Part shown: positions 5,047 to 55,334 of the stretch, piece by piece | Numbering within the stretch: the first letter of the stretch is position 1 | Layout of the letters: every line of letters starts with the position of its first letter | Assembly: GCA_030280995.1 (NCBI GenBank) | Contig: JASXTE010000002.1 | Span: forward strand, 28,379,183-28,443,182 | From: Hemileia vastatrix | Lineage: Eukaryota; Basidiomycota; Pucciniomycetes; Pucciniales; Zaghouaniaceae | Length of the DNA: 64,000 bases | Reading direction: 5' to 3' | Program-made: the position numbers and the translations under genes | Notes under the pieces: model-generated | Told to the model about the DNA's origin: nothing | Database searches by the model: none | Seen by the model: the letters and a program-made list of their open reading frames with translations, nothing else

Positions 5047-5051
5047 ACATC
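5047..5051 (+). repeat. Target-site duplication of A1 (left)
   Basis: ACATC here is repeated at 12111-12115 directly after the 3' LTR, the 5-bp duplication expected for Ty3/Gypsy integration. Confidence 0.9.
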
Positions 5052-7220: not shown

Positions 7221-7816
7221 ATGTGTGACAACAATGACATTGTAAGTAATAAGGCAAAACCTTATAACTTAATACCTAGAGCTGAAAGACCTGTTACAGG
7301 ACGTTCAAATGGAGGGCCAGGACTCTCCCATAATCAACAACACTCCACAAATGTCTCTGGAGGAAAGGGAAAAGCTTCTAAAGCAGGTTTCAATAAAGAA
7401 GTCAAAAAATACATTACAAGAACAAGTTCACTCCCTATCCACCCTAATGAACACCTTGACAATAAGAGTCAACAACATAGTGGACCAGATCAACAATCTG
7501 GAAAAGAGAGCAGCTCAAGGTTTCATAGAAGTCAACCAAGCTCTAGTGGACATAAAGACTCAACCACCAATAGTGGCATCCAAAAATTCCATAGCAACAC
7601 CTCCAGCCCAAGAGGAGGACCAAAAAATTACAGTAAGCAAATGGAAATGGGATTGGTACGCCCAAAATTACAACAATCCTACTCAACAAGGATCCAGCAG
7701 TCACCCTTACAGGGGAAAGCTAAGGAGAGGCAGGGGAAATGGAGTAAGACCTTGGTGAGTCATCCAACTTCTTATGATCAATTACATCAACCTAACAATG
7801 AATTACTTATAGGTAA
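7221..7816 (+). CDS. A1 spliced accessory protein (exons 7221-7241, 7300-7754, 7813-7816)
   Basis: Splicing joins MCDNNDI to the +1 frame starting DVQMEGQ, giving a predicted 159-aa protein. It contains a Lys/Glu/Leu heptad-rich region (LQEQVHSLSTLMNTL..., coiled coil likely), then VSKWKWDW, HPYRGKLRRGRG and a terminal RPW. The TAA stop forms at the exon 2/3 junction; unspliced RNA gives TGA after the same Trp. The W-x-W-D-W, HPY and basic-tail elements recur in families B and C, whose proteins are otherwise quite different, so this frame appears selected. Function unknown; the basic C-terminus could bind nucleic acid and the helix could oligomerise. An alternative route is internal initiation at ATG 7309, fourth codon of exon 2. 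Confidence 0.75.
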
Positions 7817-12110: not shown

Positions 12111-15100
12111 ACATCTAGTGAATTTTCTTATCAAACAATTTTTTTCATTGCCATAGAGAGAATTGATCCCATCTGACTGCACCTGACCAAAAGTGTCCAG
12201 CACAAGTTCGGCCAAACTTGTGCTGGACACTTTTATGATGGAGAGTAGCTAGGGTGCAGGTCTTCTTCAGTGCAACTGTTATTTTTTTAAAACATGTCAA
12301 CTGGTATTTGATCTTTCTGTGTTATTCATATTTTATTATCTGATTAATTTTTTGTCATTAGAATATTATTAATTTTATAAGTATAGAATAAACTTGTGCG
12401 CCAAATGCATGCTATGTTATATTACACCTTTTATAATACTATTAAAAAATGTTTAAAAAATATGAAAATGATTTTTTTTCCAAAATTATAAATTAATATC
12501 CAAATGTAACATGAGTGATAAAAAAGTAAAGTAAAAGAGATCAAATATGAAAAAGAAAAATTCAAGGAAAATTCCTGCCTTCAAGAGCCAGTAGAGGTGT
12601 TGAAACAAATGGGTGCCATCAGGGCTAAATTTGATAAAATTTAATTTTTTTTAAAGATAAAAAATTTTTCATCTGAGGTTTTGAAAAACTCAAGGTGGAT
12701 AATTCAGCCATACCAAACTACTTCTAATGTAATTATTTAGCATTTTTTTAAATTTAATTTCCACAGAGAGAATTGATCCCATCTGACTGCACCTGAACAA
12801 AAGTGTCCAGCACAAGTTCGGCCAAACTTGTGCTGGACACTTTTATGATGGAGAGTAGCTAGGGTGGAAGTGTTTCTCAGTACATCAGTTTTTTGTTTTT
12901 CAGATTTCTATTGGTTTTTTAACTTTTTTTTATCATTCATATTTATCTTATAATTAATTTTTTGTCACCATATATATTATTAATGTTTCTAGTATAGCAA
13001 AAACCTGCATGCCAAATGCAAAATTGGTGATGTTACACCTTTAATAATATTATTATATAAAGTTAAAAAAATATGAATATGTTTAGTTTTTAAAAAAATA
13101 AATTGATATTTAAAATTAAAAAGAGTAATAGAAAAGTAAAATGAAAATAAATGGGATCAAATACGAAATAAAAAATACAAGTAAAATTTTTACTATCAAG
13201 AGCCAGAAGTGGTGTTGGGACAGTTGGGGTCCCCTAGGTCAAGACTTGGTCTAAACTTACTTTTATGTATAGCTAACAAATTTTGAGCTGAGGTTTGGAC
13301 AGACTTCCAGGGGACAATTTTACAATATTAAAAATTCTTTACTTCAATAATTGAGTGAAATATCATTTTCATTGCCATAGAGAGAATTTATCTCATATGA
13401 CTTCATGCAACCAAAAGTGTCCAGCACAAGTTCAGCCAAACTTGTGCTGGACACTTTTATAATTGAGAGTAAGCATACAGCAAATCTTCTTAAACTCAAA
13501 AGGGATTTCTGATAAACATTTCCACTGGTATTTGATCTTTCTGTGTCATTTAAATTTACAATTTGATTAATTTTTTGTCATCATTATATTATTAACATTA
13601 TTACTATAGTAATAACTTGTGTGAAAAATGCATACCAGTTGGTGTTCCACCTTTAATCATATATTATTAAATAAAGGTATAAGAGTATGAAAATTATTTA
13701 TTTTAAATATTAAAAATTGATATTCAAAGCAATATGAGCAATAAAAAAGTAAAATAAAAGGGATAAAATAAGAAAAAAAAATCTCAGGAAAATTCACACT
13801 ATCAATAACAAGTAGAGGTGTTAGATCAAATGTGCACCACCAGGGCTAAACTTCGACTATATTTTCTTTTTTGTTAAACCAAAGAAAGTGTCCTGATGAG
13901 TTTTGAAAAATCATCAGGAGGACATTTTGGCAATATCATTACTTATTGTGCAATGATTGAGCAAAATGTCATTTTCATTTCCATAGAGTAAATTTATCCC
14001 ATCTGACTGCATGCAACCAAAAGTGTCCAGCACAAGTTTGGCCGAACTTATGCTGGACACTTTTATGATGGTGAGTATCTAGGGTGCAGGTCTTCTTCAG
14101 TTCATCAGGTATTACTTATAAACAAATCCACTTGTATATGATCTTTCTGTGTCATTCATATTTATCATTTGATTCATTGTTTTTCACCATTATACTATTA
14201 ATGTTATTAGTATTGAAAAAAATTATAAGCCAAATGCATACTGGTAGATGCTACATCTTTAATAATCTTATTAAATAAAAGTAAAAAAAATATGAAAAGT
14301 ATTAGTTTTACAATAAATAAATTGATATTTGAAAGCAAAAAGAGGAATAAAAAAGTAAAATAAAAGTGATTAAATATGAAATCAAACATTCAAATAAAAT
14401 TTCTGCCATCAAAGAAAATTTGAGTTTTCAGACCAAAATTGCACCACCAGTTCTAGATTTGGAATATATTTTAATTTTTTTTAAATTAATTAAAGTGTCC
14501 ACCTGAGGTTTTCAAAAAAAATCAGGAGGATAGTATAGCAGTGTAAAACTACTTCTTGTGCAATGATTGAGCCAAAATTCATTTTAACTTCCATTGAGTA
14601 AATTTATCCCATCTGACTGCATGCAACCAAAAGTGTCAAGCACAAGCTCAGTTGAACTTGTGCTGGACACTTTTATGATGGAGAGTAGCTAGGGTGCAAG
14701 TCTTCTTCAGTTAATCTTATATTCATTTTAAAAATGTCTATGGTTATTTGATCTTTCTGTGTCATCCATATTTATTATTTGATTATTTTTTAGTCACCAT
14801 TATATTATTGATGTTTTTAGTATAGAAAAAACATGTGTACTGAATGTACACTGTGTGATTTTACAACTTTAATAATATTATATAATAAATGTAAAAAAAT
14901 GTGAAAGTTATCAGTTTTACCAAAATAAAATTGATATTTAAAAGCTAAAGGATAAATAAAAGGGTAAAATTAAAATTAAAGAGATCAAACATGAAATAAA
15001 GATATTAAGTATAATTTCTGCTATCATGAGCCAGTAGAGGCTTCAGAAAAAATGGGCACCATCATAGATTAACATGGATCAAATTTACTTTTTACCAAAG

Positions 15101-17100
15101 TAGAAAATTGTCTACCTTAGGTTTGGACAAACTTCCGGGGGACAATTTGTCCATATAAAACTACTTTCAGTGCAATGATGGAGTGATCATTCAGTCTCAT
15201 TTCCATAAAAAGAATTGATTACATCTGACGGCATGCAGCCAAAAGTTTCCAGCACAAGTTTGGCCAAACTTGTGCTGGACACTTTTATCATGGAGAGTAG
15301 CCAGGGTGAAAGTCATTTTAAATCATCTGGAATTTCTTATAAACATTTCCACTGTTATTAAATCTTTGTGCCTCACTCATATTTTTCAATTGATTAAATT
15401 TTTGTCACCATTATATTATTAATATTATCAGTATATCAAAAACTTTTGTGCCAAATGAATACTGGGTGATGTTACACCTTTTATAATATTATTAAATAAA
15501 GGTAAAAAAATATAAAAATGATTTATTTTACAAAAAATAAACTTCTATCCAAAAGCAATATGAGAGGAATAAAGTAAAATAAAAGAAATGAAAGATGAAA
15601 ATTAAAATCCAAGTTAAATTCCTGCCATAAACAGAGAAAAGAGATGTTGAATCAAATTAGCACAATCAAGGCTAAACTTGCACTAAATTTTCTTTTTTGT
15701 AAAAATAAAAAAAAAATCCACTTGAGCTTTACCAAAACTTCAGCATGAAAATTTGGCCATATCAAAATACTTCTAGTGTAATTTTTTATCAAAAATTTAT
15801 CTTCATTTCCATAGAGAGAATTGCTCCCATCTGACTGCACCTGACCATAAGTGTCCAGCACAAGTTTGGCCAAACTTGTGCTGGACACTTTTATGATGGA
15901 GAGTAGCTAGGGTAGAATTTTTCTTCAGTTCATCTATTATTTCTTACAAACATGTCTACTGGTATTTTATCTTTGTTCCTCACTCATAAATATCATTTGA
16001 TTAATTTTTGGTCGCCATTATATTATTAATTTTATAAGTATAGAAAAAACTCATGTGCCAAACGCATACCAGGTGATGTTATGCCATTTATAATGTTATT
16101 AAATAAATATATAAAAATATGAAAACAGTTTATTTTAAAAATTATTAATTTATATCCAAAAGCAATTTAAGTTAAAGGGATCAAATATGAAAAAAGAAAT
16201 CCAAGTAATATTCCTACTATCAAAGGCCAGTAGAGGTGTTGAAGCAAATGAGAGCCATCAGGGATAAATTGTACTAAATTTACTTTTTTTTAAAGATAAA
16301 AAATTGTGCACCTGTGGTTTGGATGAACTCTAGGTAGAAAATTTGGCTATGTAAAACTACTTCTACTGAAGTTTTTTATCAAATAATTTTTTTCATTGCC
16401 ATAGCGAGAATTCATCTCATATGACTGCACCTGACCAAAAGTGTCCAGCACAAGTTCGGCCGAACTTGTGCTGGACACTTTTTTGATGGTGAGTATCTAG
16501 GGTGCAGCTCTTCTTCAGTGCAACTGGTATTTTTTTAAAACATATCCACTGGTATTTGATCTTTCTGTTTTATTAATATTTTATCATTTGATAAATTTTT
16601 TGTCACCAGTATATTACTATTTTTATTAGTATAGCAAAAAAACATGTGCCAAATGCTTACAGGGTGATGTTAAACCTTTAATAATTTTATTAAATACAGG
16701 TAAAAAATTATGAAAATGATTTGTTTTACATAGAATTAATTGATATCTAAAAGAAAAAAAAGGGATAAAAAGAAATAGGTTGAATAAAAGGGATTTTATA
16801 TGAAATTAAAAATTCAAGCTAAATGCCTACTTTCAAGGCTCAGAAGAGTTGTTGGATAAAATGGGCATCATCAGGAATAAAATTGTACTTAATTTGATTT
16901 TTTGAAAAACTAAATGAAGTTTTTAACTTATTTTTTTCCAATATTTAGTTGGACACTTTGTCTATATCAAATTACTTCTAGTACCATGATTGACCAAATT
17001 AAATCCTCATTTTCATATTCAGAATTGATCCCATATGGCTGGACCAGGCCAAAGGTGTCAACCACAAGTTTGAGAATTCTTCTGGTCGACACTTTTATGA
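12111..17100 (+). repeat. Tandem array of ~609-bp palindrome-bearing units, right part
   Basis: Continuation of the array after A1. Palindromes start at 12189, 12799, 13413, 14019, 14629, 15241, 15847, 16437 and a decayed one at 17051, spaced 590-614 bp. Removing A1 and its duplicated 5 bp restores a 605-bp step between 4520 and 12189. The flanking GATGGAGAGTAGCTAGGGT and CATCTGACTGCA words persist in most units, while spacer sequence drifts, so palindromes look better kept than spacers. No protein-coding content. Confidence 0.9.
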
Positions 17101-18956: not shown

Positions 18957-19989
18957 ATGTCTTCTGTTGGTCAATCAGGTGTTTCTCTTCCTGTCAATGC
19001 TTTGGTCAGGGTTGTTTATTGGGATGGGCCCAAGTTTAATGGGGAAGAAATTAAATGGTTTTTAAATAGGTATGAAGCTTCTGCTACTGTTGATATGGCT
19101 TTTCATTTGGACATGGTGAAGAAAGTTAGATTTTTTATGTGGAAAGAGAGGTGGAATTGGAGGACATTGCTATGGAGGGTTATAAAAAGTGGGGCTGGTT
19201 GAAATTTCAAAGGAGGTGGTTGATAGATAAGATTTTGGTTATAATATGGTGGTCCTAAACAAGATTGTCAGTGATTTTCAAGCTAAAGGTGGTTTTTCTA
19301 ATATGGTGTACTTCAAAAGGTTATGTAGGAAGTTTGATGAAGTGGTGGATTATTTGATTCTGGTGGAGGAGATTGGCCATGAAAATCAGGCAAAGGATTT
19401 GTTTTGGTAAGCTTTTAGTAGGGATATCAGGATGGATTTTTTAAAAGAACTGTCTAAAAAGAACAAAATGAAGGATTTTCCAAATGGAGAACAGAAGCTT
19501 CCCGCTCTAGAGGTCATCAAGCAACATATCCAGACATATATAAAACTTATGGCTCTGGACAAGTATCAAGAATCTGGTCCTCAATATGTTAGAAAGATTA
19601 GTGAAGTTTTGGCCAAAAATAATGATATTATGGTCAAGGCTCAGGAGGCAAAAAAGGCTCAGATGGTTCAGCCTTTTGCTAAGGTTGAAGGGAATGTGGA
19701 TAATAAAATGTTGGATCAGTTGGCTGACTTAACTAAGAAGCTTAAAATATTTTTTCAGGAAACACAAAAGGCTAATAGGATGCTTTTGGAATCAAAATCA
19801 ACTTCTTCTTCTTATCAATATAGGGGTTATGAGAGGAGCAACTATGTATTTAATGGCAATGGAAATGGTGGTAGAGATTCAAATGGTAATGGTCCCAATA
19901 GTTTTAGAGGTGGTTATGGTGAGCCTAGAGTTTGCTCCTATTGTGATATGAGGGGGAAAAGGGCTGCAGATTGTTTTTTATTTATATAA
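18957..19989 (+). pseudogene. D1 gag, N-terminal and zinc-knuckle part
   Basis: Two open pieces (18957-19200 and 19432-19987) are separated by a region that aligns with D2 gag at 59157-59495 but carries frameshifts and stops. The N-terminal part reads VSLPVNALVRVVYWDGPKF-like capsid sequence; the second carries a Lys/Gln-rich helix, a Gly/Asn-rich stretch and a knuckle remnant CSYCDMRGKRAADC. The expected His is replaced by Lys, so zinc binding is probably lost. Not functional. Confidence 0.75.
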
Positions 19990-19993
19990 GCAT

Positions 19994-20763
19994 TTGAAGG
20001 CTGGCAGGGTCAAGTTTGATGGTAAGGTTTATAAATTTCCATATGAGTCTTTTATTAAACCTAGTGGTGGAGAAACTCCTTCAGATTTAAATATCAGGAA
20101 TCAGATAGCTGAAAGAAGAGCCAGATTTGAAGAATTAACCGGTGATGAAGATGATGATGGTAAATGTGGAAAAAATAATGGTGTTAATGATGGTGGGAAA
20201 ATAGATAAAGTTAAAGAAAAGGAGGCCAGTAAGGCCAATTTTACAACTTCTTTTTGTGGATTAGAGTTGGGAACAGTTTCAAAGGAAGATGGTAACTGTA
20301 TGATTGGGGAATATGATGTTGATGCTTCCAGGAGAGCAGCTGCTGCTAAGGCTAGGAGCAGCATACAAAATAAACTTAGGACAAAACCAGGTAGGGCTGA
20401 AATTAAGAGCATTGAAAAGAAACCATACACCAAGGTGGAATTTATTGGATGCAGAAGGGGATGGCAGATATTGGGCTTCCTAGTTTTCGAAAGTTTAATT
20501 TGAAAGGAGAGCCAATACTTGAAGATAATAAATCAGATTATCAGGAAGATGTACTATTAGTGTCTCTTACCAAACCAAGTTTTGATGGTCCTACTCCTAT
20601 GGAAGGGGCAAGAAGGACCAGTGACAGAACTGGATTAGTGAAAGAAGCTGGTGATAGAGCTAGGGTTGTTGTAGATGAAGAAGTTATTATGGGGGTTGAA
20701 GATGGAAATATGGGTCCTCAAGAGGTTTCCAGGGCCAATTTTGTTAAAAATAAAGTACAATAA
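19994..20763 (+). pseudogene. D1 gag-pro linker region
   Basis: Two overlapping open frames (19994-20503 and 20449-20763) together align with D2 60027-61080, around a MITE insertion there. The content is Asp/Glu/Lys-rich with GGETPSDLNIRNQIAERRARFEE-like and TPMEGARRTSD segments. A frameshift lies in the overlap near 20450-20500. I recognise it only through its D2 partner and its place before the protease. Confidence 0.6.
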
Positions 20764-27045: not shown

Positions 27046-28297
27046 TGTCAGCCAGGCTATTCCAGGAGTCCAGTAAATGATATATAAATTATAAAACCTT
27101 AAAGAGTGGGTAAGACTTGTATTTAATGAATATAACTTAATATTTTATTGCATAATGAAATTATATAAGAATTTTATTATAGACAAGTGTTACATTAAAT
27201 TTATTGGTTATATATATTTTTATATATACAATTAAATTGAGCATAATATAATATATTCTACAAATAATGGCGCATTTTTATGTATTTAATAATTATAAAT
27301 TTATATTTAATTAATTAAAAAACATATATTATAATTATAAGTGTAAAATTGACTTATAATATAATTAAATTAATTATTTAAATTTATATAATAAATAACA
27401 TCTTTCATATAGTATTAAACAATAATTAATGGCGCTTCTTTTGACCCTTAATTATGTCAGGAAGAAAATCAAATAAATTATAATACTTATTTTATAAAAT
27501 AGTATTATAAATTCTCAAATTAAATTAATTAATTGTTTCAGTTAAACTAGTTATTAAATTACATAGTGAAAACAATTAATAAATATTAATTTACACTGAA
27601 TTAAAATGATTGCATGCCTTGTTACGTCAAAACATGTTATTTATTTCACTTACAAATGCTGAAAACAGATTGTAATACTTGTTTTGATTTGTTTTTCCCA
27701 TAGTTCTTAGATCACAGGGTTGTTTAGTTACTCATTATTTTGTATTAACTGATTTGGGAAATTTGGGATGGGAATTTTATATTCTTAATTGGGATTCTTA
27801 TTATTTTTCGTATAATTTTCTCTTAATTACTATGTTACGGATGTCTTCTTTTATCTTCTTGTTTTACTTCATTACTATTTTGTATATAGTCACTTGTAGC
27901 GCTTCAGAGGACCCATTGCCTATAAAAGGGCCTTGGATAATCCCCTGTAGAAGTATCACTTACTATACACTCAACAAACTTGAAAATATTTTCTATTACA
28001 TTTATATTATTTTTTATTAGTATTATAACTCTAATTAAAATTCTATATAATTAACCAGAGGTTGCCTTAAGTCTGATAGTACTCATAGTATTTGCCGCGC
28101 AGAAACCCTTACACCAAAATAATATTATTTAAAACCTTCACTTTTGTCATCTCTCAAGTTACTCGTGGTTGCCTTCCTTTAAATAAATTAAATAATTTTT
28201 TATATTTTATTTCTTTTATTCCTCAAAGCCGTTCTCCTTGTCCTCCTCTATCTCTATCTTCCCCTTTTTCTTCCCTCTTCTAGACGACTGACCGACA
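27046..28297 (+). repeat. B1 5' LTR
   Basis: 1252 bp, TGTCAGCC...GACCGACA. The interior is extremely AT-rich; the 3' third carries the TATA motif and a CT-rich end. Confidence 0.95.
27921..27928 (+). promoter_or_regulatory. B1 LTR TATA box
   Basis: TATAAAAG followed by GGCC; present also in the 3' LTR at 36063-36070 and in reverse in the B2 LTRs (37536-37543 and 45530-45537). Confidence 0.55.
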
Positions 28298-28299
28298 AC

Positions 28300-28312
28300 T
28301 GGGGACCTTTCC
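28300..28312 (+). other. B1 primer-binding site
   Basis: TGGGGACCTTTCC two bases after the LTR, identical to the A1 site. Confidence 0.7.
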
Positions 28313-28984
28313 AAACGACGACGACGATCGAGCCTGGCGACGAACGACAAAACGCACGGACCACCTAGCAAAACGAAACTTTTGCCGCTACTGTGTTTCG
28401 AACTTGGGTTCGACATCTTAGGTTTATATATTATTAATTTTTATATTATTTTGAAGTGATTTTTTGATCACTATAGTAAGTTCACCTTTGCGCCTCTCAC
28501 TCATATTACTATATTTTTATTGCAATAACAGTGATTGTGGCTTAATTGCTGATTCACTGAGTGTAAGTGTTCAATCTTAAAATTTTTTTTTTTCCTAGTT
28601 GACCATTATAGAGTGTTAAATCCTCTTAGTCCTAGAAGAATTGACATTATTATTAATACAAATTGAATTATTAATTTAATTTTTTTTATTATTAATTATT
28701 GTTAATTTTGGTTGACTTAAAAGTACATTGTGCTTAGTCCCAAATATATTGCCATATTTAATATTGGTAATTAATTGGTTGAATTAACTTACTTGTTATT
28801 CCCAATTTAACCTTGCAATCCATTTTTTTTTAAAAAATTAATTTTTTAATTATTACTTTATATTGAAAATTATTTCTATAATTTAATTAATTAAATATTT
28901 TTTTTTATTATTTGGAGCAATTATTGACTAACTTTGATTATTTTTTTATAAAGTACAAAGTAAAATATAAATCTTCCCACTAGT
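28313..28984 (+). other. B1 leader, no gene
   Basis: It starts with a GC-richer CGACGACGACGATCGAGCC stretch, then turns very AT-rich. GTAAGT words at 28475 and 28563 and AG acceptor-like sites nearby could mark leader introns, but I cannot settle them. A GTTGAC...AGTCCTAG motif near 28600-28640 recalls the leader repeats of family C. Confidence 0.5.
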
Positions 28985-29724
28985 ATGTCCAACAATTTGG
29001 CAGAAAAAATGGATAACATGCAAGTGGATGAGATAGAAATTGACTATGATGCTGACACTGTAAGTTCTTCTAAAGTTGGTCATAAAAAATCTTATGCTAA
29101 CACAAAGAATTCACATACTGCAGGATGTGGAAATGACAGGAAATGCAAACAAACCAAACCCCCTTCCCCCAGTACCACAGAAGGAAGTAAAGCCTCCAGT
29201 GCCTCAAGAAGGTCTTCCAAAAGGCTTCAAAATAAAAAATCTTCCTCTGCCACAACAAATCAGCAACCTATCCAGTCATATAAAAGAGTTGAAGACAGAA
29301 AATATGACGTACAAAGCAAAGGTAGACACATTGTGGGATCAGGTCCAAGAACTCAGGAACCAGATTCAGGCCCAGGCCCCTCCTCAGTTGCCTCCCAATC
29401 AGCCTCAATTTCAGGCTCAACCTTCACAGCCACCCAGCTCAACCATCCAAAATCCAAATACTATGGAAGTAGAGCAATGGAAATGGGATTATCTAATGAG
29501 TCACTACCAACAGAATGTGCAACACCCTCCTCATCATCAGCCTGGCCCATCCAGAACACCCAATTTCCATCCACCTCCTCATCCCTACCAACAAGGCAGG
29601 AGAAAGAAGGCCCAAGCACAATCCCAAACCCAGTCCCAGGGGAAGTTTCCTCCTCTGCCATGGTAAGTAATTTGGTTGATAGTCACTTGGGTATGTTTTC
29701 TAATAAATCTTCTTCTGCAGGTAA
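28985..29724 (+). CDS. B1 spliced accessory protein (exons 28985-29059, 29124-29662, 29721-29724)
   Basis: Predicted 205 aa. Exon 1 gives the acidic N-terminus ending DYDADT; exon 2 starts DVEMTGN in the +1 frame, followed by a Pro-rich segment, LPKGFKIKN, a strong heptad region (LSSHIKELKTENMTYKAKV), a Gln/Pro-rich linker, EQWKWDY, HPYQQGRRKK and PPLPW. The stop TAA forms right after the junction Trp. The frame is fully open in this copy although the Gag-Pol frame has stops further down. LPKGFKIKN-to-heptad sequence is clearly similar to family C, more so than the Gag frame reading of the same DNA. Cellular role unknown; a nucleic-acid-binding, oligomeric regulator or packaging factor would fit the composition. 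Confidence 0.8.
29060..29123 (+). other. B1 predicted intron 1 (64 nt)
   Basis: GTAAGT donor at phase 0, branch word CTAAC about 25 nt before the acceptor ACATACTGCAG, exon 2 starting GATGTGGAAATG. Length is 1 modulo 3, so removal changes frame into the accessory reading. Confidence 0.85.
29663..29720 (+). other. B1 predicted intron 2 (58 nt)
   Basis: GTAAGT donor, CTAAT at intron positions 38-42, pyrimidine-rich acceptor TCTTCTTCTGCAG. It has the textbook layout of a short fungal intron, and the length is the same as in families A and C. Confidence 0.85.
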
Positions 29725-32700
29725 TATTATTGAACATGGTGAAAGAACAGTTAAACCTGTTAAAAGACAGCTTCCTGTAACTAGTAGCCCTATTGATGTA
29801 ATTAGCAAATTGTCATTTGATGAACCTTTACATTTAACTTCTACATCTTTAATTAATCCTTCTCTTGCAATTAAAAATGATTCTGTTCCCCCTGAAATCT
29901 ATACCTTAATTGAAAAAACTTCTGAGGAAATATTGAAAGATACCCTTGATTTTAATATTGTGAAAGACAAACATGTGAGAGATGTGTTAATCCATGAAAA
30001 TGATAGATTAAATAATTTACACTTGCAATGTAAAGTGAGTTCTTCTGTACAAGATACAGCTTATTTTAAAATTAAAGAAACCTTGAATATTGTTCTTAGT
30101 CAACAAAAACAAATAAGAAGTGACCATAGAGCTATCTCAGATAGAAATATCAGTCTACATAAGACCTTGAGTGAATTGAAACCCCTTATTGAGGAAAATT
30201 ATTCATTCAAGAATGAAATAAAATCTCTACAAAATGAGTTTAAGAAGCTAAAAAATGATTTCCATGCACTAAGTACCAAACACTCAGTTTCTGAGGACAG
30301 AAATGTTCTATCTCTTGCAAAAGTAAATGACCAGATGTCTGAAATTCCAAGAATAAGAAACTATGTGTCTGACCTACAGGAAAAGTTCTCAACCTTATCC
30401 ATCAATAATGAATTAAATGAGATTTCTGCAAATAAGCTGCATAAAAATAAAGGGAAAAAACCTGAACAAAGTTCATCTTTTCTTCCTCATATTTAAACCA
30501 TTAAACAAACTGAAAATGAGTCTGTGAAATCTTTTGCTACTAGCAAAAAATCTTGTGATGGTCATGCACCAGCTGTTTCTGTAAATAATGAAATTTCTGA
30601 ACACCTGGCTAAACTTCAGGAATTATTACTAATGAATAATTCAAACCAAAAAGTGGACCATCCCAGTAGTCAGAAAAATTGGCCTAAGTTAGACCAATAT
30701 CCTACCTTTGATGGTGATTCTTCCTCTGATTGGTAACACTTTATCCAAAGAATTGATAATTTAAAGAGATCTTATAAACTACCTGATGAGGAAATTGTTT
30801 CTAAGCTAATTTCTTTATTTTCCAATGTAGCCTTGATGTGGTATGAATCTGTCCTCTTAGATAACAATCATTATACATGGAATGATTGGAAATCCTTGAT
30901 TGAGAATCAGTTTGGTGGTTCAAAATTCAGGTTAGCTCAGCAGAGACTGTATGAGAATACTAGATATGTATCCTCCTCTGTTGAAAAGCCCATTGTTTTT
31001 CTGATGAAAGTAACTAAAATCCTTAGAGAAATTGATCCAAAGATGGATTATGATATTTGGAGAGATAAAATCTTGTATAAATTACCAAATTCTCTTAGGG
31101 ATTCAATTGTTGCTAGAACTGAGCATGTAAGGGAAAATTCTTCTTTCATTAACATCTGTAATGAAGTACTACTCAACCATAGATATGAACCAAAGAATTA
31201 CCTTAGTAAATCTTATAATGATCAGAATAAACCTTCTATAAAGCTCCCAGAAAAATCTGGTAAACTCTCTGCCCCAGTTGCACCTAAAAAATATGCAACA
31301 AATACTTGTTATAAATGTAACAAACCCTGGCAGAAGGGTCATGTTTGTGACAAGAAAATTCATCTTGTTGAACAAAATGAAGACACTGATGAAGTTGAAC
31401 TTGATGTCAATAATTCTTCCAGTGACTGTGAAAGTAATATCTCCTATGACAATGAATCTGTTAAAGATGTTTTAATGTTGGAACATGATGTCCATTATTT
31501 AAATAATATATCTGAAGATTGTGTATTGAATTTATCTTCAGTAGAAAATGCTGAGATAATTAAAGATATTACTAACAATTCTATTCCCATATCCCCTTTA
31601 AAGGCACCTGTTATCATTAATGGTAAAAATATTGATGTAGTTCTTGATTCTGGTGCTGGAGGAAGTGTAGTATCTGAAAAAGCTTTGGCTTCAGTGGATA
31701 AGGAATATTTGAGTAAAATATTGCCTATAACTTCTGAAAAATGGAGAGGGTATGGTTCTACCTTATTTCCTATTGGCAAATACAAAACCTCTGTATTCTT
31801 CAAATATAGTGGTGGTTTTGTCAGAGCTATTTGTGAGTTTGTTGTCATGAATAATTATAATTTGAGCAATTGGTTTATTATGAGAAATGATATTTTAACC
31901 ATGTTTGGTGTGAAACTGGATCCAGCAAATAATTGCTTTACTTTAGGAATGAATGGGAAAAGAAAATTCAAAATTTCTTCTCCTAGACCTTCTGGGCATT
32001 TGTTGAAATCTTGTAACTCACTGACCCAATGTAAAGGTAGAACAACAACTGAAATGGATGATTTATTACATGAAATAAATACCGCTTCTTTTGGTGAACA
32101 GTTGACTAGTGAACAAAAGGATTCTATTGTTGCCTCTATTACCTCTTTCCCTATGGCTTTTGCTCATGGTTCTCATGTCTTGGGAATTGTTCAGGAAGAG
32201 ATGAAAATTACCTTATCCTGTAATTTGAGTGATATTCCTCCTTCCCTTAAGAAAAGACCATATCCTGCTTCTCCATCAAAAAGAAAAGATATTGAAGATA
32301 ATATTGAAACATTATTGAAAATGAATATCATTGAGAAAGTGGATGTCACCCCCAAATATTGTGTCATCTCCCCAGTCTTAATTTCTTATGAAAAAGATAA
32401 AGCTAGATTATGTGGAGATTACAGAGCTTTAAATACTTATACTGTTGATGATATTTATCCTTTACCCAGAATTAATTCAATACATGCTACCTTGCAAGGT
32501 GCAAAATTTATTAGTTGTCTGGATGGTAATAAAGGTTATCATCAAGTTCCAGTTGAGAAAAATTCTCAAATTTTTTTGCTTATTGCTACTCATATGGGAA
32601 TATATAAGTATGTTAGGATGCCATTTGGCCCTAAAAATGCTCCTTCAGTTTTCCAGAAAGTCATGGATAACACTTTCCATCAAGAAATTATTGAGGGTTG

Positions 32701-35175
32701 GCTCATGGTTTATATTGATGATATTATTGTTTTTTCTAAAACTTTTGATGAACATATGATTCACTTAAATAGAGTTTTCCAAAAAATGGATGAAATCAAT
32801 ATGACCTTATCTTTAAAAAAGTGTAAATTTGGTTTTCAATCTTTGAAAGTCCTTGGCCATGTTGTGTCAGGCTTACAAATTTGTGTAGACCATAATAAAG
32901 TTGCTGCCATTCAAAATGTGAAAGCACCAACTTCTGTAAGAGAAATCCAAAGTTTTTTGGGTATGTGTGGCTATTATAGACAATATATTAAAAATTATCA
33001 GGTCATAGCCTTGCCTCTTACAAAACTAACCAGAAAAGATGTTGCTTTTCTCTGGAATAATGACTGTCAGAAAGCTTTTAATACATTGAAAAGTTGCTTA
33101 ATGACAGCCCCTATATTGGCTCTTCCAGATTTTAACAAGCCATTTGTACTTTATACAGATGCTAGCTTTATTGGTCTGGGTGCTGCCCTTCACCAAAAGC
33201 AAATTATTAATGATAAATCCTCAGAGGTTGTAATTTGTTATATTTCAAGAACCTTAAGAAATAGTGAATTGAAATATGGTGCCACTCAATTGGAGTGCTT
33301 AGCAGTTGTTTGGGCTCTTGAGAAACTTCATTACTACTTGGATGACCAAAAATTTGAGCTGGTAACTGACTGTAGTGCTGTGAAATCTCTCTTAAACCTC
33401 AAAACACCTAACAGACATATGTTCAGGTGGCAACTTGCTGTTCAGGAATACAGAGGAAGGATGACTATTATCCACAGAGCTGGAAATGTTCACTCTAATG
33501 TTGATATGCTCTCCAGATTGCCTCTGCCAAATAATGACTCCAATCCTGCTTATGTACCTGAGGATGACACTGTTCATATACATGGTATATTTATAGTTGA
33601 TATGGAAGAAGAGTTATTACAGTTAATACTGGATTCATATGATAAAGATTCTGACTAAAATAAATTAGTTACTATTTTGAATGATCCTAAGAATGCTTCA
33701 ATTCAATCATTAATAAAAACTCTTCCTGCAAAGTACCAAAATGCTTTAAATAAAGGAAAGTTTTCTATTGAAGATGGTTATATATATTATAGAAGGAAGC
33801 TTACCAATGTAATTGTTATTCCTCCTTCAATGAAAGAAACTATCCTCAAACTTTGTCATGATGACATATTAGCTGGTCATTTTGATCTTGAAAAAACATT
33901 GATTAGAATCAAAAACACTGCATGGTGGGCTAATATGTCTGAAGACACAAAATTATATGTTGAATCTTGTGATTCCTGCCAAAAATCTAAAAGGTTAACA
34001 GGTAAGAGAGCAGGGTTATTACAACATATTGAAGCACCTAGTGCTCCCTGGCAAATCATTAATATGGATTTTGTCACTGGTCTTCCTGTTGCAGGTAAAG
34101 ATAGCTTTAACTCTTGTTGGGTAATAGTGGATAGATTCACAAAAATGTGCAAATTTATTCCAACCCACAAAGATGTATCCACCAAAGAATTAGCTTTCTT
34201 ATGGTGGTCTTACATGTTTAATATTATTGGTTTTCCAAAAGCCATTATCTCTGATAGGGATCCAAAATTCACTTCTGAGTTTTGGACCTCTTTGATGGAT
34301 ATTTGTGGCTGTGAGTTAAAATTGTCTACAGCTCATCATCCTCAGACTGATGGTCTAGCTGAAAGAATGATTCAAACTCTGGAAGATATGATTAGAAGGT
34401 ATTGTGCCTTTGGTTTAGAATATAAAGACAATGACAGATTTACTCATGATTGGGTCACTCTTTTGCCTGGTCTTGAATTTGCATATAATAGCACTGTTCA
34501 TTCTGTCACTGAGAAAAAGCCTTTTGAGCTTTGGTTAGGTTATGGCCCAAACACTCCTGCTCAGATTCTCAATAATAAATTACCTAAGTTGGAACTACAC
34601 CCTGGTGTAAAATCTTTTATGCAAATGCAACAGCTCTGCAGAAAACATGCTCAGAGTTGTATTGATAAAGCATTTGAATATGAAAAGAAAAGATGGGATA
34701 AATCCCATAAAGAATACACATTTAACAAGGGTGATGAAGTGTTGATCTCTACTGTCCATTTCAATTTACAAGGTAACCACAAATTAAAAGATCTTTTTGT
34801 AGGACCATTTGTTGTTAAAAGAATGGTTGGTGATAATGCAGTAGAAGTTGTATTGTATTCTCCATATGATAGGAAACATCCTGTCTTTCCCATTTCTCTA
34901 CTTATAACTTATACTTCCAACAGTGACTTATTTCCAAAAAGAAGAGGAAGACCTAAGAAGAACCCTCAGGAAGTCACAGAAACAGCAGAAATTGATAAAA
35001 TTCTCAATGATAGAATTATCACTTCTGAAAGAGGTACTGAATATTTATTGAGATATAAGAACAAATCATCTGAACATGATGCATGGATACCTGGCAAAGA
35101 AATTTCAAATCTGCCTGCTCTGTTGAAAAAATACAAAAAGAAAAAATCTTAGCATTTTTTTTTATTGTTTTTTTT

Positions 35176-35187
35176 AGAGTGAGGGAG
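35176..35187 (+). other. B1 polypurine tract
   Basis: AGAGTGAGGGAG after a T-rich run, abutting the 3' LTR. Confidence 0.8.
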
Positions 35188-36439
35188 TGTCAGCCAGGCT
35201 ATTCCAGGAGTCCAGTAAATGATATATAAATTATAAAACCTTAAAGAGTGGGTAAGACTTGTATTTAATGAATATAACTTAATATTTTATTGCATAATGA
35301 AATTATATAAGAATTTTATTATATACAAGTGTTACATTAAATTTATTGGTTATATATATTTTTATATATACAATTAAATTGAGCATAATATAATATATTC
35401 TACAAATAATGGCGCATTTTTATGTATTTAATAATTATAAATTTATATTTAATTAATTAAAAAACATATATTATAATTATAAGTGTAAAATTGACTTATA
35501 ATATAATTAAATTAATTATTTAAATTTATATAATAAATAACATCTTTCATATAGTATTAAACAATAATTAATGGCGCTTCTTTTGACCCTTAATTGTGTC
35601 AGGAAGAAAATCAAATAAATTATAATACTTATTTTATAAAATAGTATTATAAATTCTCAAATTAAATTAATTAATTGTTTCAGTTAAACTAGTTATTAAA
35701 TTACATAGTGAAAACAATTAATAAATATTAATTTACACTGAATTAAAATGATTGCATGCCTTGTTACGTCAAAACATGTTATTTATTTCACTTACAAATG
35801 CTGAAAACAGATTGTAATACTTGTTTTGATTTGTTTTTCCCATAGTTCTTAGATCACAGGGTTGTTTAGTTACTCATTATTTTGTATTAACTGATTTGGG
35901 AAATTTGGGATGGGAATTTTATATTCTTAATTGGGATTCTTATTATTTTTCGTATAATTTTCTCTTAATTACTATGTTACGGATGTCTTCTTTTATCTTC
36001 TTGTTTTACTTCATTACTATTTTGTATATAGTCACTTGTAGCGCTTCAGAGGACCCATTGCCTATAAAAGGGCCTTGGATAATCCCCTGTAGAAGTATCA
36101 CTTACTATACACTCAACCAACTTGAAAATATTTTCTATTACATTTATATTATTTTTTATTAGTATTATAACTCTAATTAAAATTCTATATAATTAACCAG
36201 AGGTTGCCTTAAGTCTGATAGTACTCATAGTGTTTGCCGCGCAGAAACCCTTACACCAAAATAATATTATTTAAAACCTTCACTTTTGTCATCTCTCAAG
36301 TTACTCGTGGTTGCCTTCCTTTAAATAAATTAAATAATTTTTTATATTTTATTTCTTTTATTCCTCAAAGCCGTTCTCCTTGTCCTCCTCTATCTCTTTC
36401 TTCCCCTTTTTCTTCCCTCTTCTAGACGACTGACCGACA
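35188..36439 (+). repeat. B1 3' LTR
   Basis: 1252 bp, about five differences from 27046-28297; followed by AGATA (36440-36444). Confidence 0.95.
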
Positions 36440-36500: not shown

Positions 36501-39500
36501 TTACCTGAAGGAACAGAGTCAGCCACAAGAAAAGGCACTTGAGAATCAATAGAGGGACGTACCAGGGTTTGCTGGGTATCACCATATTGGGCTTCCTTCT
36601 TCTTTTGCCTCCTTGATAAGGGTGGGGAGGAGTGGGGTTGGCCTGGGTGGGCCTTGATGGACCTACCTGAGGTAACTGATGCTGGTTTTGAGCCAAGTAG
36701 TCCCACTGAGTGTTGAGCCAGTCCCACTGCCACTTGGACACTTCCACCATCTCTTGGGACTGGGGAGCCAATTGTTGTTGATCCCTGTGAGGAAGAGGTT
36801 TCTTCTTCTCTTGGAGAAAAGTATCTGTTCCTCTCACCTTTTCTTCCAAGGCATCTACCCTTACCTTTAGTCTCAAGCTGTCTGCCCTTAACTCCTTTAT
36901 GTGGGTAGACAGATTCTTTACCTGCTGAGACAACGGCATCTTTTTTATCCTAAAGCCTTTTGGAAGCTCTTCTGGTGGGTTTATCATGGGCTTCTGATCC
37001 TGAGTATTGTCCACGAGGATTTCTACTTCTTCCATCTCTACATCCTGTTTGGGGCAAGGATTTATTAGTTGGAGAAATTCTTCTTGTTGAAGGAGAACTT
37101 ACAGAAGTAGGCTCATCATAATCAATTAAGTCTAGTTCTTCTTCACGTGCAGCAAAACCACTTTTGTCAGTCAGGCGTCTAGAAGAGATAAGATAAGAGG
37201 GAAGAAAAGAGAGTAGGACAAGAAGGAGATAGTAGTTTAGAAATAAAAGAAATAAAAACAATTGAGATTATTTGATTTATTTGAGAGAAAGAAACGACGA
37301 GTGATTTGAGAGGTGACAACAAAATTGGTTTTATTAATATTAATATTATTTAAGTAAGAGTTTCTGCGCGGCAAACAATATAATTACTATCAGACTTAAG
37401 GCAACCTTTAAATTGTTATTTAGAATTTTTAATTAGAATTTAATACTAACAAAAATAATAATAAGCGTAATAAATTTATCTTTAAATTGTTGAGTGTGTA
37501 ATAAGTGATGAGGCTACAGGGGATTATCCAAGCCCCTTTTATAGGCAATGGGCCATCTGGAGCGCCACTATATTTGTAAATACAATAATTATAATAGAAT
37601 AAAACAAGTATATCAAAGAGTAAGTGAAACATAACAATGTAGAGAAAAATATGAAACAAATAATTAAAAACCCCAATTAAGAATCCAATTTTCCCGCCAT
37701 TAATTCCCAAATCAGTAAGAAAAAATAGTGAATAACTAAACAAGCCTGGAACATAGGAACTATGAGAAAAATCATTCAAAACAGATGGTACAGTCTGATT
37801 TAAGGATTTTTAAGTGAAACAAAAAATATTCTGACACAACAAATATGTAATTTATTTCAATTCAGTATTAATTAGTTTTTCCTGACACAATTATAGGTCA
37901 AAAGAAGCGTCATTATTTATTGTTTAATATTATAAGACATGATATTTAATATATAAATATAATTAATTAATTTAATTATATTATAAGTAAATTTTACACT
38001 TATAATTATAATATATGTTTTTAATTAATTAAATATAAATTTATAATTATTAAATACATAAAAAATGCGCCATTATTTGTAGAATATAATATATTATGTT
38101 AAATTTAAATGTATAAAAAATTTATATAACCAATAAAATTAATATAACACTTATATGTAATAAAATACTTATATAATTTTATTATGCAATAAAATATTAA
38201 TTTATATACATTAAATACAATTCTTACCCCCTCTTTCAGGTCTTATAAGTTACATATCATTTACTGGACTCCTGGAATAGCCTGGCTGACACTCCCTCAC
38301 TCTAAAAAAACAATAAAAAAAATGCTAAGATTTTTTCTTTTTGTACTTTTTCAAAAGAGTAGGCAGATTTGAAATCTCCTTACAAGGTATCCATGCATCA
38401 TGTTCAGATGATTTGTTCTTATATCTCAATAAATATTCAGTACCTCTTTCAGAAGTGATAATTCTATCATTGAGAATTTTGTCAATTTCTGCTGTTTCTG
38501 TGACTTCCTAAGGGTTCTTCATAAGTCTTCCTCTTCTTTTTGGAAATAAGTCACTGTTGGAAGTATAAGGCTTAAGAAAAGAAATGGGAAATACAGGATG
38601 TTTCCTATCATATAGAGAATACAATACAACTTCTACTGCATTATCACCAACCATTCTTTTAACAACAAATGGTCCTACAAAAAGATCTTTTAATTTGTGG
38701 TTACCTTGTAAATTGAAATGGACAGTAGAGATCAACACTTCATCACCCTTGTTAAATGTGTATTCTTTATGGGATTTATCCCATCTTTTCTTTTCATATT
38801 CAAATGATTTATCAATACAACTCTGAGCATGTTTTCTGCATAGCTGTTGCATTTGCATAAAAGATTTTACACCAGGGTGTACTTCCAACTTAGGTAATTT
38901 ATTATTTAGAATCTGAGCAGGAGTGTTTGGGCCATAACCTAACCAAAGCTCAAAAGGCTTTTTCTCAGTGACAGAATGAACAGTGCTATTATATGCAAAT
39001 TCAAGACCAGGCAAAAGAGTGACCCAATCATGAGTAAATCTGTCATTGTCTTTATATTCTAAACCAAAGGCACAATACCTTCTAATCATATCTTCCAGAG
39101 TTTGAATCATTCTTTCAGCTAGACCATCAGTCTGAGGATGGTGAGCTGTAGACAATTTTAACTCACAGCCACAAATATCCATCAAAGAGGTCCAAAACTC
39201 AGAAGTGAATTTTGGATCCCTATCAGAGATAATGGCTTTTGGAAAACCAATAATATTAAACATGTAAGACCACCATAAGAAAGCTAATTCTTTGATGGAT
39301 ACATCTTTGTGGGTTGGAATAAATTTGCACATTTTTGTGAATCTATCCACTATTACCCAACAAGAGTTAAAGCTGTCTTTACCTGCAACAGGAAGACCAG
39401 TGACAAAATCCATATTAATGATTTGCCAGGGAGCACTAGGTGCTTCAATATGTTGTAATAACCCTACTCTCTTACCTGTTAACCATTTAGATTTTTTGCA

Positions 39501-42500: not shown

Positions 42501-45500
42501 AGTATTCTCATACAGTCTCTGTTGAGCTAACCTGAATTTTGAACCACCAAACTGATTCTCAATCAAGGATTTCCAATCATTCCATGTATAATGATTGTTA
42601 TCTAAAAGAACAGATTCATACCACATCAAGGCTACATTGGAAAATAAAGAAATCAGCTTAGAAACAATTTCCTCATCAGGTAGTTTATAAGATCTCTTTA
42701 AATTATCAATTCTTTGGATAAAGTGTTGCCAATCAGAGGAAGAATCACCATCAAAGGTAGGATATTGTTCTAACTTAGGCCAATTTTTCTGACTACTGGG
42801 ATGGTCCACTTTTTGGTTTTAATCATTCATTATTAATAATTCCTGAGGTTTAGCCAGGTGTTCAGAAATTTCATTATTTACAGAAACAGCTGGTGCATGA
42901 CCATCACAAGATTTTTTGCTAGTAGCAAAAGATTTTACAGACTCATTGTCAGTTTGTTTAATGGTTGAAATATGAGGAAGAAAGGATGAACTTTGCTCAG
43001 GTTTTTTCCCTTTATTTTTATGCAGCTTATTGATGGCAATCTCATTTAATTCATTATTGATGGTTAAGGTTGAGAACTTTTCCTGCAGGTCAGACACATA
43101 GTTTCTTATTCTTGGAATTTCAGACATCTGGTCATTTACTTTTGCAAGAGATAGAACATTTCTGTCCTCAGAAACTGAGTGTTTGGTACTTAGTGCATGG
43201 AAATCATTTCTTAGCTTTTTAAACTCATTTTGCAGAGATTTTATTTCATTTTTGAATGAATAATTTTCTTCAATAAGGGGTTTCAATTCACTCAAGGTCT
43301 TATGTAGACTGATATTTCTATCTGAGATAGCTCTATGTTCACTTCTTATTTGTTTTTGTTGACTAAGAACAATATTCAAGGTTTCTTTGATTTTTAAATA
43401 AGCTGTATCTTGTACAGAAGAACTCACTTTACATTGCAAGTGTAAATTATTTAATCTATCATTTTCATGGATTAACACATCTCTCACATGTTTGTCTTTC
43501 ACAACATTAAAATCAAGGGTATCTTTCAATATTTCCTCAGAAGTTTTTTCAATTAAGGTATAGATTTCAGGGGGAACAGAATCATTTTTAATTGCAAGAG
43601 AAGGATTAATTAAAGAAGTAGAAGTTAAATGTAAAGGTTCATCAAATGACAATTTGCTAATTACATCAATAGGGCTACTAGTTACAGGAAGCTGTCTTTT
43701 AACAGGTTTAACTGTTCTTTCACCATGTTCAGTAATATTACCTGCAGAAGAAGATTTATTAGAAAACATACCCAAGTGACTATCAACCAAATTACTTACC
43801 ATGGCAGAGGAGGAAACTTCCCCTGAGACTGGGTTTGGGATTGTGCTTGGGCCTTCTTTCTCCTTCCTTGTTGGTAGGGATGAGGAGGTGGATGGAAATT
43901 GGGTGTTCTGGATGGGCCAGGCTGATGATGAGGAGGGTGTTGCACATTCTGTTGGTAGTGACTCATTAGATAATCCCATTTTCATTGCTCTACTTCCATA
44001 GTATTTGGATTTTGGATGGTTGAGCTGGGTGGCTGTGAAGGTTGAGCCTGAAACTGAGGCTGATTGGGAGGCAACTGATGAGGGGCCTGGGCCTGAATCT
44101 GGTTCCTGAGTTCTTGAACCTGATCCCACAAGGTGTCTACTTTTGCTTTGTACGTCATATTTTCTGTCTTCAACTCTTTTATATGACTGGACAGGTTGCT
44201 GATTTGTTGTGGCAGAGGAAGCTTTTTTATTGTGAATCCTTTTGGAAGACCTTCTTGAGGTACTAGAGGCTTCACTTCCTTCTGTTGTGCTGGGGGAAGG
44301 GGGTTTGGTTTGTTTACATTTCCTGTCATTTCCAAATCCTGAATTATGTGAATTTTTTGTGTTAGCATAAGATTTTTTATGTCCAACTTTAGAAGAACTC
44401 ACAGTATCAGCATCATAGTCAATTTCAATTTCATCCACTTGCATGTTATCCATTTTTTCAGCCAAATTGTTGGACATAATAGTGGGAAGATTAATTAACT
44501 TTTTTTTAAAAAAAATAATAAAAGTTAGTTAATAATTGCTCCAAATATAAAAAAAAATTTTTATTAATTAAATTATAAAAAAAAAATTTTTTTTAATATA
44601 AAGTAATAATTATAAAAAATTAATTAAAAAAATGGATTGCAAGGTTAAATTGGGAATAAACAATCAAGTTAATTCAACCAATTAATTACCAATATTAAAT
44701 ATGGCAATATATTTGGGACTAAGCACAAAGTACTTTTAAGTCAACCAAAATTAACAATAATTAATAATAATAAAAAAATTAATTTAATAATTCAATTTGT
44801 ATTAATAAAAATGTCAATTCTTCTAGGACTAAGAGGATTTAACACTCTAAATGGTCAACTAGGAAAAAAAAATTTTAATAATTGAACACTTACACTCAGT
44901 GAATCAGCAATTAAGCCACAATCACTGTTATTGCAGTAAAAATATAGTAATATGAGTGAGAGGTGCAAAGGTGAACTTACTATAGTGATTGAAAAATCAC
45001 TTCAAAATAATATATGAATTAATATAATATAAACCTAAGAAGTCGAACCCAAGTTCGAAACACGGTCGCGGAAAAAGTTTTGTTTTTGCTAGGTGGTCTG
45101 TGCGTTTGTCGTTTGTCGCCAGGCTCGATTGTCGTCGTCGTTTGGAAAGGCCCTCAGTTGTCGGTCAGTCGTCTAGAAGAGATAAGATAAGAGGGAAGAA
45201 AAGAGAGTAGGACAAGAAGGAGATAGTAGTTTAGAAATAAAAGAAATAAAAACAATTGAGATTATTTGATTTATTTGAGAGAAAGAAACGACGAGTGATT
45301 TGAGAGGTGACAACAAAATTGGTTTTATTAATATTAATATTATTTAAGTAACAGTTTCTGCGCGGCAAACAATATAATTACTATCAGACTTAAGGCAACC
45401 TTTAAATTGTTATTTAGAAGTTTTAATTAGAATTTAATACTAACAAAAATAATAATAAGCGTAATAAATTTATCTTTAAATTGTTGAGTGTGTAATAAGT

Positions 45501-54660: not shown

Positions 54661-55334
54661 TTACCTGAAGGAACAGAGTCAGCCACAAGAAAAGGCACTT
54701 GAGAATCAATAGAGGGACGTACCAGGGTTTGCTGGGTATCACCATATTGGGCTTCCTTCTTCTTTTGCCTCCTTGATAAGGGTGGGGAGGAGTGGGGTTT
54801 GCCTGGGTGGGCCTTGATGAACCTACCTGAGGTAATTGATGCTGATTTTGAGCTAAGTAGTCCCACTGTGTGTTGAGCCAGTCCCACTGCCACTTGGACA
54901 CTTCCACCATCTCTTGGGATTGGGGAGCCAATTGTTGTTGATCCCTGGGAGGAAGAGGTTTCCTTTTCTCTTGGAGAGAAGTATTTATTCTTTTCTCCCT
55001 TTCTTCCAAGGCATCTACCCTTACCTTTAGTTTTAAGCTGTCTGTCTTTAACTCCTTTATGTGGGTTGACAGATTCTTTATCTGCTGGGACAACAGCATC
55101 TTTTTTATCTTGAAGCCTCTTGGAAGCTCTTCTGGTGGGTTTGTCCTGGGTTTCTGATCCTGAGTATTGTCCACTAGGATTTCTACTTCTTCCATTTCCA
55201 CATCCTGTTTGGGGCAAGGATTTATTAGTTTGAGAAATTCTTCTTGTTAGAAGAGAACTTACAGAAGTAGGCTCATCATAATCAATTAAGTCTAGTTCTT
55301 CTTCACGTGCAGCAAAACCACTTTGATCAGTCAT
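54661..55334 (-). CDS. C2 spliced accessory protein (exons 55334-55263, 55204-54723, 54664-54661)
   Basis: Predicted 185 aa: MTDQSGFAAREEELDLIDY... joined to DVEMEEVEIL, LPRGFKIKK, a heptad-rich stretch (IKNLSTHIKELKTDSLKLKV), VSKWQWDWLNTQWDYLAQ, HPYQGGKRRRKP and SKPW. Without removal of intron 2 this frame reads on for 29 codons of hydrophobic sequence (YVPLLILKCLFLW); with removal it stops right after Trp, as in families A and B. All exons are open and all splice signals present, so this is the best candidate with B1 for expression. Exon 2 also has its own ATG at codon 4. Function unknown. Confidence 0.8.
54665..54722 (-). other. C2 predicted intron 2 (58 nt)
   Basis: GTACGT donor, CTGAC at intron positions 41-45, acceptor CTGTTCCTTCAG. 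Donor weaker than in A and B. Confidence 0.75.
55205..55262 (-). other. C2 predicted intron 1 (58 nt)
   Basis: GTAAGT donor at phase 0, AAACTAATAAA branch region, acceptor CCCCAAACAG, exon 2 starting GATGTGGAAATG exactly as in B1. Confidence 0.85.

Follow-up and report, generated by a model that had tools for sequence, protein, structure and literature searches.

The window, a stretch of 64,000 nucleotides (nt) from the rust fungus Hemileia vastatrix (contig JASXTE010000002.1, positions 28,379,183 to 28,443,182 of the forward strand; G + C content 32%), holds copies of three Ty3/Gypsy retrotransposon families: A (copy A1), B (copies B1 and B2) and C (copies C1 and C2). Their gag open reading frames (ORFs) start at 7221 in A1, 28985 in B1, 44477 in B2 and 55334 in C2; C1 is a split copy. 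In all five copies a first intron lies near the start of gag and a second at the end of another reading frame, whose predicted product is here called the accessory protein. The layout very probably reflects splicing combined with dual coding, alternative splicing at the 5' end of gag yielding two proteins from one stretch of DNA. The features, in window coordinates, are these.

27046-36439, + strand: B1 element, with long terminal repeats (LTRs) at about 27046-28297 and 35188-36439 that are 99.6% identical (BLAST ends 28298 and 36440)
28985..29059, + strand: B1 exon 1, 25 codons, the N-terminus common to Gag and the accessory protein
29060..29123, + strand: B1 intron 1, 64 nt, GTAAGT..CTAAC..GCAG
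29124..29662, + strand: B1 exon 2, accessory frame, overprinted on Gag, which is read there in a different frame
29663..29720, + strand: B1 intron 2, 58 nt, GTAAGT..CTAAT..GCAG, its donor overlapping the accessory stop (TGG TAA)
28985..30496, + strand: B1 gag frame with both introns retained, 503 amino acids (aa) and then a stop in B1, 2062 aa in many other copies
44339..44402, - strand: B2 intron 1, 64 nt
43742..43799, - strand: B2 intron 2, 58 nt
55205..55262, - strand: C2 intron 1, 58 nt
54723..55204, - strand: C2 exon 2, accessory frame
54665..54722, - strand: C2 intron 2, 58 nt
37045..37102, - strand: C1 intron 1, 58 nt
36505..36562, - strand: C1 intron 2, 58 nt
7242..7299, + strand: A1 intron 1, 58 nt, with sites conserved in A copies
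7300..7754, + strand: A1 exon 2, accessory frame
7755..7812, + strand: A1 intron 2, 58 nt

Intron 1 is 64 nt long in B and 58 nt in A and C, and intron 2 is exactly 58 nt in all five copies, with GT..AG borders; both lengths are 1 modulo 3 in every copy. Since this holds for intron 1, splicing moves translation into the second frame. The case is not one of splicing within Gag alone, because removal of intron 1 takes translation out of the gag frame after exon 1. The spliced products, 205 aa long in B1, 185 aa in C2 and 159 aa in A1, share only 7-25 residues with Gag. They have in common DV[EQ]M, a heptad region, W-x-W-D-[WY], HPY, a basic stretch and a terminal PW.

An earlier note on this DNA had placed intron 1 in A1, B1, B2, C1 and C2, with a length of 58 or 64 nt that is 1 modulo 3, and this arrangement was recovered here in all five. 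It had recognised only this one intron; the second is present in every copy and went unnamed, though the end coordinate given in the note reaches it. The splice donor shortly after the gag ATG, claimed for five copies, is so placed in four, but C1 lacks a gag ATG where one would be expected and also carries one gag-frame stop. The conserved start of exon 2 stands as a general layout, except that B2 begins GATTTGG rather than GATGTGG, and the motifs common to the spliced products are found in B1, C2 and A1, whereas the accessory frame of B2 is broken by a TGA at the first W of W-x-W. In C1 a CTG occupies the position of the C2 gag ATG, and the C1 sequence farther upstream is unlike that of C2.

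The Pro-Trp-stop ending of the C2 protein arises only once intron 2 has been removed; otherwise the frame extends for 28 more residues. This tail of the C accessory frame with intron 2 retained (54640-54722, - strand) contains a run of strongly hydrophobic residues, VPLLILKCLFLWLTLFLQV; it may serve as a membrane anchor, or it may be no more than a T-rich intron read in that frame.

Exact removal of both introns in families B and C

Exon-exon junction patterns were searched for in the whole genome (an assembly of 747.6 Mb in 791 contigs) with up to three mismatches allowed and with reversed patterns as the control, which gave no match for any of the three junctions that follow. The B intron 1 junction has 18 matches, one of them an unrelated chance match; in the other 17 exactly the 64 nt are absent, the end of exon 1 being joined to exon 2 (in one, L016, unrelated sequence stands in place of the beginning of exon 1). 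The C intron 1 junction has 38 matches, and the 30 that were read all lack the 58 nt exactly. For the B intron 2 junction there are 28 matches, seven of which also lack intron 1; 20 of the other 21 were read, and 19 of these keep a full-length intron 1, one being unclear upstream. Both introns are missing from eight B copies (L013, L015, L017, L019, L020, L021, L024 and L025, the last lying above the mismatch limit of the intron 2 search) and from eight of the 30 C copies (L028-L030, L044, L046, L047, L050 and L055). Family B holds all four classes: neither intron removed, intron 1 only, intron 2 only, and both.

These genomic copies, in which introns are missing to the base, show that introns 1 and 2 have been removed exactly in vivo in B and C, and it is on their account that splicing is taken as real in these families. 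They also show that the two B introns have been removed independently of each other. A tree of 43 B rows, in which no regain of introns was assumed and weak nodes were collapsed, requires at least 10 losses of intron 1 and at least 19 of intron 2; L016, L026, L094 and L096 were left out of it, as was L001, which is B1 itself. A smaller tree of 25 rows gives nine and seven losses. Such counts take no account of template switching between RNAs, and the near-identical pairs L022/L023, L024/L025 and L028/L029 are not independent. Loss of intron 2 alone is recurrent, being found in many B copies (L081-L100), and in most of those read the gag frame then ends after about 245 codons.

Deletions are common in LTR elements, and the precise gaps might have arisen from jumps of the reverse transcriptase (RT) between short repeats. 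This is barely credible here, and is rejected, given identical GT..AG borders at intron 1 in 17 B and 30 C copies and at intron 2 in 28 B matches, in what would have to be at least 10 and at least 19 separate B events.

Three B copies were read at 9.7 kb, target duplications being taken from the flanks. L058, which lacks both introns, has LTRs with 100% identity across 1256 nt, and its 5-bp duplication is ATGTT; as judged by BLAST gap totals only, no intron beyond the two is missing from it. L057, which lacks intron 1, has LTRs 99.47% identical and the duplication GTCCA; its gag-pol frame is open for 2008 codons past the junction, but is out of frame with the gag ATG. In the older copy L059, whose LTRs are 95.2% identical, the target duplication could not be made out. 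The LTR termini TGTC..GACA and 5-bp duplications are found in B1 (AGATA, read from the flanks), L057 and L058. In family C, L080 lacks both introns and lies between LTRs that are 98.8% identical over the 414 nt fetched, and its accessory ORF is intact. The near-identical LTRs, together with 5-bp target duplications in two of the three B copies, show that spliced RNAs are sometimes copied by the machinery of the element and integrated, in some cases recently.

The protected frame in exon 2

The overlap itself leaves a mark on the gag frame. If synonymous codons of the accessory protein are permuted, the gag frame would average five to seven stops, where B1, C2 and A1 have none; the probability of an open gag frame given the accessory protein is <2e-4 in B1, 0.0016 in C2 and 0.0006 in A1. 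At least 85 B gag matches were scored genome-wide, and all of them run through residues 1-503 without stops, many in 2062-aa frames; seven other unspliced B copies that were read (L002-L008) all have an open accessory frame. Exon 2 differences between families fall mainly in the third positions of accessory codons (60, 54 and 99 at positions one to three for B1-C2; 64, 54 and 98 for C2-A1). Counted by gag codon position (92, 73 and 78; 93, 81 and 76), the same differences give no third-position excess. Chance is an inadequate account of the layout, because of the exact intron-less copies, with none among the controls, and the codon tests.

Within families, changes were polarised by the commonest base and each class was compared with the expectation for that sequence. 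After removal of duplicates (L001 and L060, which are the window copies B1 and A1, and the near-identical pairs listed above), 20 A, 24 B and 31 C rows were used; dropping them makes the exon 2 effect slightly stronger in A and B and leaves it about equal in C. The ratios of observed to expected shared changes, that is, those present in two or more copies, are as follows for A, B and C.

Exon 2, accessory synonymous: 2.08, 2.48, 2.14 (p 0.004, 2e-8, 2e-13)
Exon 2, accessory nonsynonymous: 0.66, 0.53, 0.64
Exon 2, gag synonymous: 0.81, 0.62, 0.94 (p 0.71-0.97)
Exon 2, gag nonsynonymous: 1.06, 1.14, 1.02
Directly after intron 2, gag synonymous: 2.31, 2.23, 1.96

Singletons in exon 2 are near neutral in the accessory frame (A 1.44, p 0.15; B 1.02; C 1.15). 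With the families pooled, the odds ratio of shared versus singleton changes is 2.97 (p 4e-9) for the accessory frame and 1.26 (p 0.17) for gag; in B with L081-L100 added (44 rows) it is 4.19 (p 5e-6) and 0.67. When the sequence is binned, an accessory synonymous excess is seen in all nine thirds of exon 2 (1.30-2.67), where gag gives 0.28-1.26, and a gag excess in all six bins downstream of intron 2 (1.77-2.35). The third frame is below 1 in all those bins except the first third of A (1.22).

Exon 2 is thus shown, by these patterns of change, to be constrained as accessory protein in A, B and C, and the overlapping gag frame to be without amino-acid constraint; past intron 2 the constraint passes to gag. 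The selection that the earlier note had proposed to look for in both frames is present as purifying selection on the accessory frame of all three families and is lacking from the gag frame in exon 2. Likewise, its proposal that unspliced RNA makes Gag-Pol and spliced RNA a 159-205 aa protein is partly supported, by the gag frame being kept open and by splicing in B and C, with the correction that the amino-acid constraint in exon 2 is on the accessory frame and not on Gag. The overlapping part of Gag looks like a ‘spacer’ obliged to stay open, since the gag frame is stop-free beyond chance though unconstrained in its amino acids.

In family A at least 150 copies of exon 2 were scored, all with 149/149 residues and no stop, and the 161-aa open frame of the unspliced copy is kept in 147 of 150. 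Of 20 distinct A copies read, none has lost the intron 1 donor, and 18 have CAG as the acceptor (L073 has TAG, L079 CCG).

A number of findings weigh against splicing with dual coding, or soften the evidence for it. The A intron 1 junction has no genomic match at up to three mismatches, despite the abundance of exon 2 copies; the common A variant differs from the junction pattern by one base only. The claim of splicing into a second open frame is therefore carried in B and C by intron-less copies, and in A, where splicing is proposed, by conserved sites and selection. The accessory frame is open given the gag protein with a probability of 0.16 in B1, 0.066 in C2 and 0.081 in A1, which is not rare by itself. 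Taken alone, A gives a non-significant p of 0.27 for shared versus singleton changes (duplicate rows included). Accessory stops among shared changes number one in A (1.2 expected), two in B (2.8) and three in C (8.5), a clear depletion in C only. Downstream gag singletons are also excess-synonymous in A and B (1.74 and 1.45), probably because loci were found via intact Gag or accessory frames, and singletons are not a pure neutral control. Spliced copies, for which Gag is no longer necessary, are among the selection rows. Finally, the ending of the gag frame at about 245 aa in copies without intron 2 alone is left unexplained by the proposed scheme.

Some of these points could be turned to another reading, in which the intron-like gag sequence is spliced by accident or under attack by the host, and no protein is made from the second frame: spliced copies have a shifted gag-pol frame and seem to be dead ends, intron 2 alone is often lost to give only a truncated Gag, and A lacks any intron-1-less copy. 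Purifying selection on the accessory frame in three families, the change of frame at intron 2 and the retention of splice sites in nearly all A copies read make this highly improbable, and it is rejected.

The elements and their setting

A domain scan finds RVT_1, RNase H and integrase in Ty3 order in B1 and C1. The three families had been called chromoviruses. A chromodomain is present in B1 (Chromo, 5.6e-8, Pfam scan), but none was found at E 0.1 in the scanned ORFs of B2, C1 and C2, which may be cut short. A1 is placed in Ty3/Gypsy because its gag-protease ORF, compared by eye, resembles the B and C ones; in the Pfam scan this ORF ends in the protease region and lacks RT. Among the best 120 of 2798 matches listed for the B1 RT, identities reach 61% and the best named relatives are Austropuccinia psidii (51%) and Puccinia striiformis (47%). 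A search of genome-contig and viral-contig collections with the B1 RT gave three and four pattern matches, no relative among them, and residues 440-993 of the A1 Gag-protease had no homologue among 6879 candidates.

B1 sits inside the gag region of C1 (26841-37173), splitting that copy. A1 (7221-11500) has its 3' LTR within about 400 nt of the gag-protease ORF, and most of pol is seemingly gone. It is flanked by a tandem repeat (2804-5052 and 12134-16850) with copies mostly 580-615 nt apart, and seems to have inserted into this array. Elsewhere in the genome some A and B copies form head-to-tail pairs or triplets (contigs C50, C194, C19 and C103; L022/L023; L024/L025) about 7.9-8.2 kb apart, a spacing as if tandem elements shared LTRs. 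ORFs of 146-185 aa at 19432-20503, 59660-60121 and 60763-61203 have no Pfam match at E 1e-3.

Possible roles of the accessory protein

The accessory proteins have an acidic start, a predicted long helix, W-x-W-D, a basic tail and a Pro-Trp end, in that order; in all three the first 45 aa have an isoelectric point of 4.1-4.8 and the last 45 aa one of 11.1-12.0. Single-chain AlphaFold models of the B protein, exactly as in spliced copy L058, and of A1 exon 2 predict with confidence a long helix (residues 67-108 and 39-87, respectively; block means up to 95) and also a second helix over W-x-W-D (136-157 and 104-125). In Pfam the B protein has matches below the cut-off only, the best being to the coiled coils of bZIP and TSC22.

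A scheme that would accommodate these features is one in which RNA with both introns serves as genomic RNA and as the Gag-Pol message, while RNA without intron 1, with or without intron 2, gives the accessory protein of 159-205 aa. Through its coiled-coil-type helix of 40-50 residues and its basic tail, the protein might oligomerise on the unspliced RNA of the element in the nucleus and favour export of that RNA or its retention in unspliced form, as do Rev and CERV. Rev is the product of a spliced RNA and has a basic stretch and an oligomerising helical part; the accessory protein is like HIV-1 Rev in its spliced-RNA origin, its basic stretch and its (predicted) helical part, and unlike it in having no Pfam match above the cut-off. 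Insect errantiviruses, for their part, have spliced env genes whose products lie downstream of pol.

Closer is the Ty3/Gypsy element Cer1 of Caenorhabditis elegans. As described in PMC10309623, its CERV protein is made from a spliced mRNA with the first three exons in the gag frame and exon 4 in a frame of its own, has a candidate leucine zipper and a basic nuclear localization signal, and is needed for export of the unspliced genomic RNA; Cer1 has no stop between gag and pol. By that description the likeness lies in a Ty3/Gypsy element using a spliced mRNA partly in a non-gag frame, and in the lack of a stop between gag and pol; the differences here are a length of 159-205 aa, two introns of 58-64 nt and an entire exon 2 overprinted on 5' gag. 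CERV also means that the earlier note's view of Ty3/Gypsy elements as normally lacking a spliced accessory gene has to be qualified. Since a spliced regulator partly in another frame is already known from Cer1, the present case is a variant and not a new kind.

The barley Ty1/copia element BARE1 has a short intron of 104 nt in its gag-pol ORF that is alternatively spliced and shifts the frame, and Bagy2, Ogre and CRR are spliced plant Gypsy elements, as summarised in PMC3735527. Unlike BARE1 as described there, splicing here yields a separate second-frame protein, and spliced copies are numerous in the genome. Bagy2, Ogre, CRR and the errantiviruses have in common with the present families that they are Ty3/Gypsy elements with spliced mRNA; unlike env, the product here lies in 5' gag. 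No account of such a gene in fungal elements was found in the literature searched, which mostly excluded subscription papers, and the available text of a paper on rust transposable elements (PMC12210899) has no occurrence of ‘gag’ or ‘spliced’ in a term search. As far as this literature shows, a complete exon overprinted on 5' gag, two tiny introns, frame-switching selection and many intron-less copies have no earlier account in fungal elements.

A Rev- or CERV-like role is suggested by the proposed production from spliced RNA only and by a helix that might oligomerise, with a basic tail. By analogy it is a reasonable candidate, though somewhat short of an even chance. Three further results count against the explanation as a whole: the models are weak outside the helices (mean predicted local distance difference test scores of 61.9 and 63.7), no known RNA-binding domain was found with Pfam, and an alignment of the three accessory proteins found no homologue among 2802 candidates at E 1e-3.

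The features of the protein would also suit a place in the particle, as a partner of Gag or an RNA chaperone acting on genomic RNA at assembly, with no export role. The long helix, the basic C-terminus and the W-rich helix are as fit for binding Gag and RNA, and exon 1 is common to the accessory protein and Gag. This reading is rather unlikely; no test favours it over a nuclear role, and an origin from spliced RNA is typical of regulators and not of particle proteins.

Alternatively, the spliced protein may limit the copying of its own element, and have been retained because the host is spared. Ty1 p22 of yeast is reportedly a short form of Gag that restricts copying in this way, and the N-terminus shared with Gag and a helix that could poison assembly would fit. 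However, p22 is said to be a piece of Gag itself, whereas the accessory protein has only its few N-terminal residues of Gag. Strong self-restriction is not suggested by families A and B, which are present in many near-identical copies; the accessory frame is open in every one of the 150 A copies scored and in the seven further unspliced B copies. Self-limitation is improbable.

The full form of the nuclear proposal is doubtful but possible: that these Ty3/Gypsy elements of a rust fungus have evolved a Rev-like switch of their own, in which an oligomeric protein with a basic tail, made by double splicing and encoded entirely over Gag, would set the nuclear exit of unspliced genomic RNA. Selection in the overlap would act on this regulator, with Gag as a free spacer, and the independent removal of intron 2, by ending the Gag frame, would provide another point of control.

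In fungi, LTR retrotransposons are commonly taken to consist of one or two plain ORFs, and three families here appear to carry an extra gene whose main exon is used in two frames, the unexpected one being the frame on which selection acts. Such a gene would escape any pipeline in which the long ORF alone is translated. The spliced copies in the genome form a natural archive of the RNAs that have been reverse-transcribed. They also open to test, in a fungus, the old question of how retroelements hold back some of their RNA from splicing.
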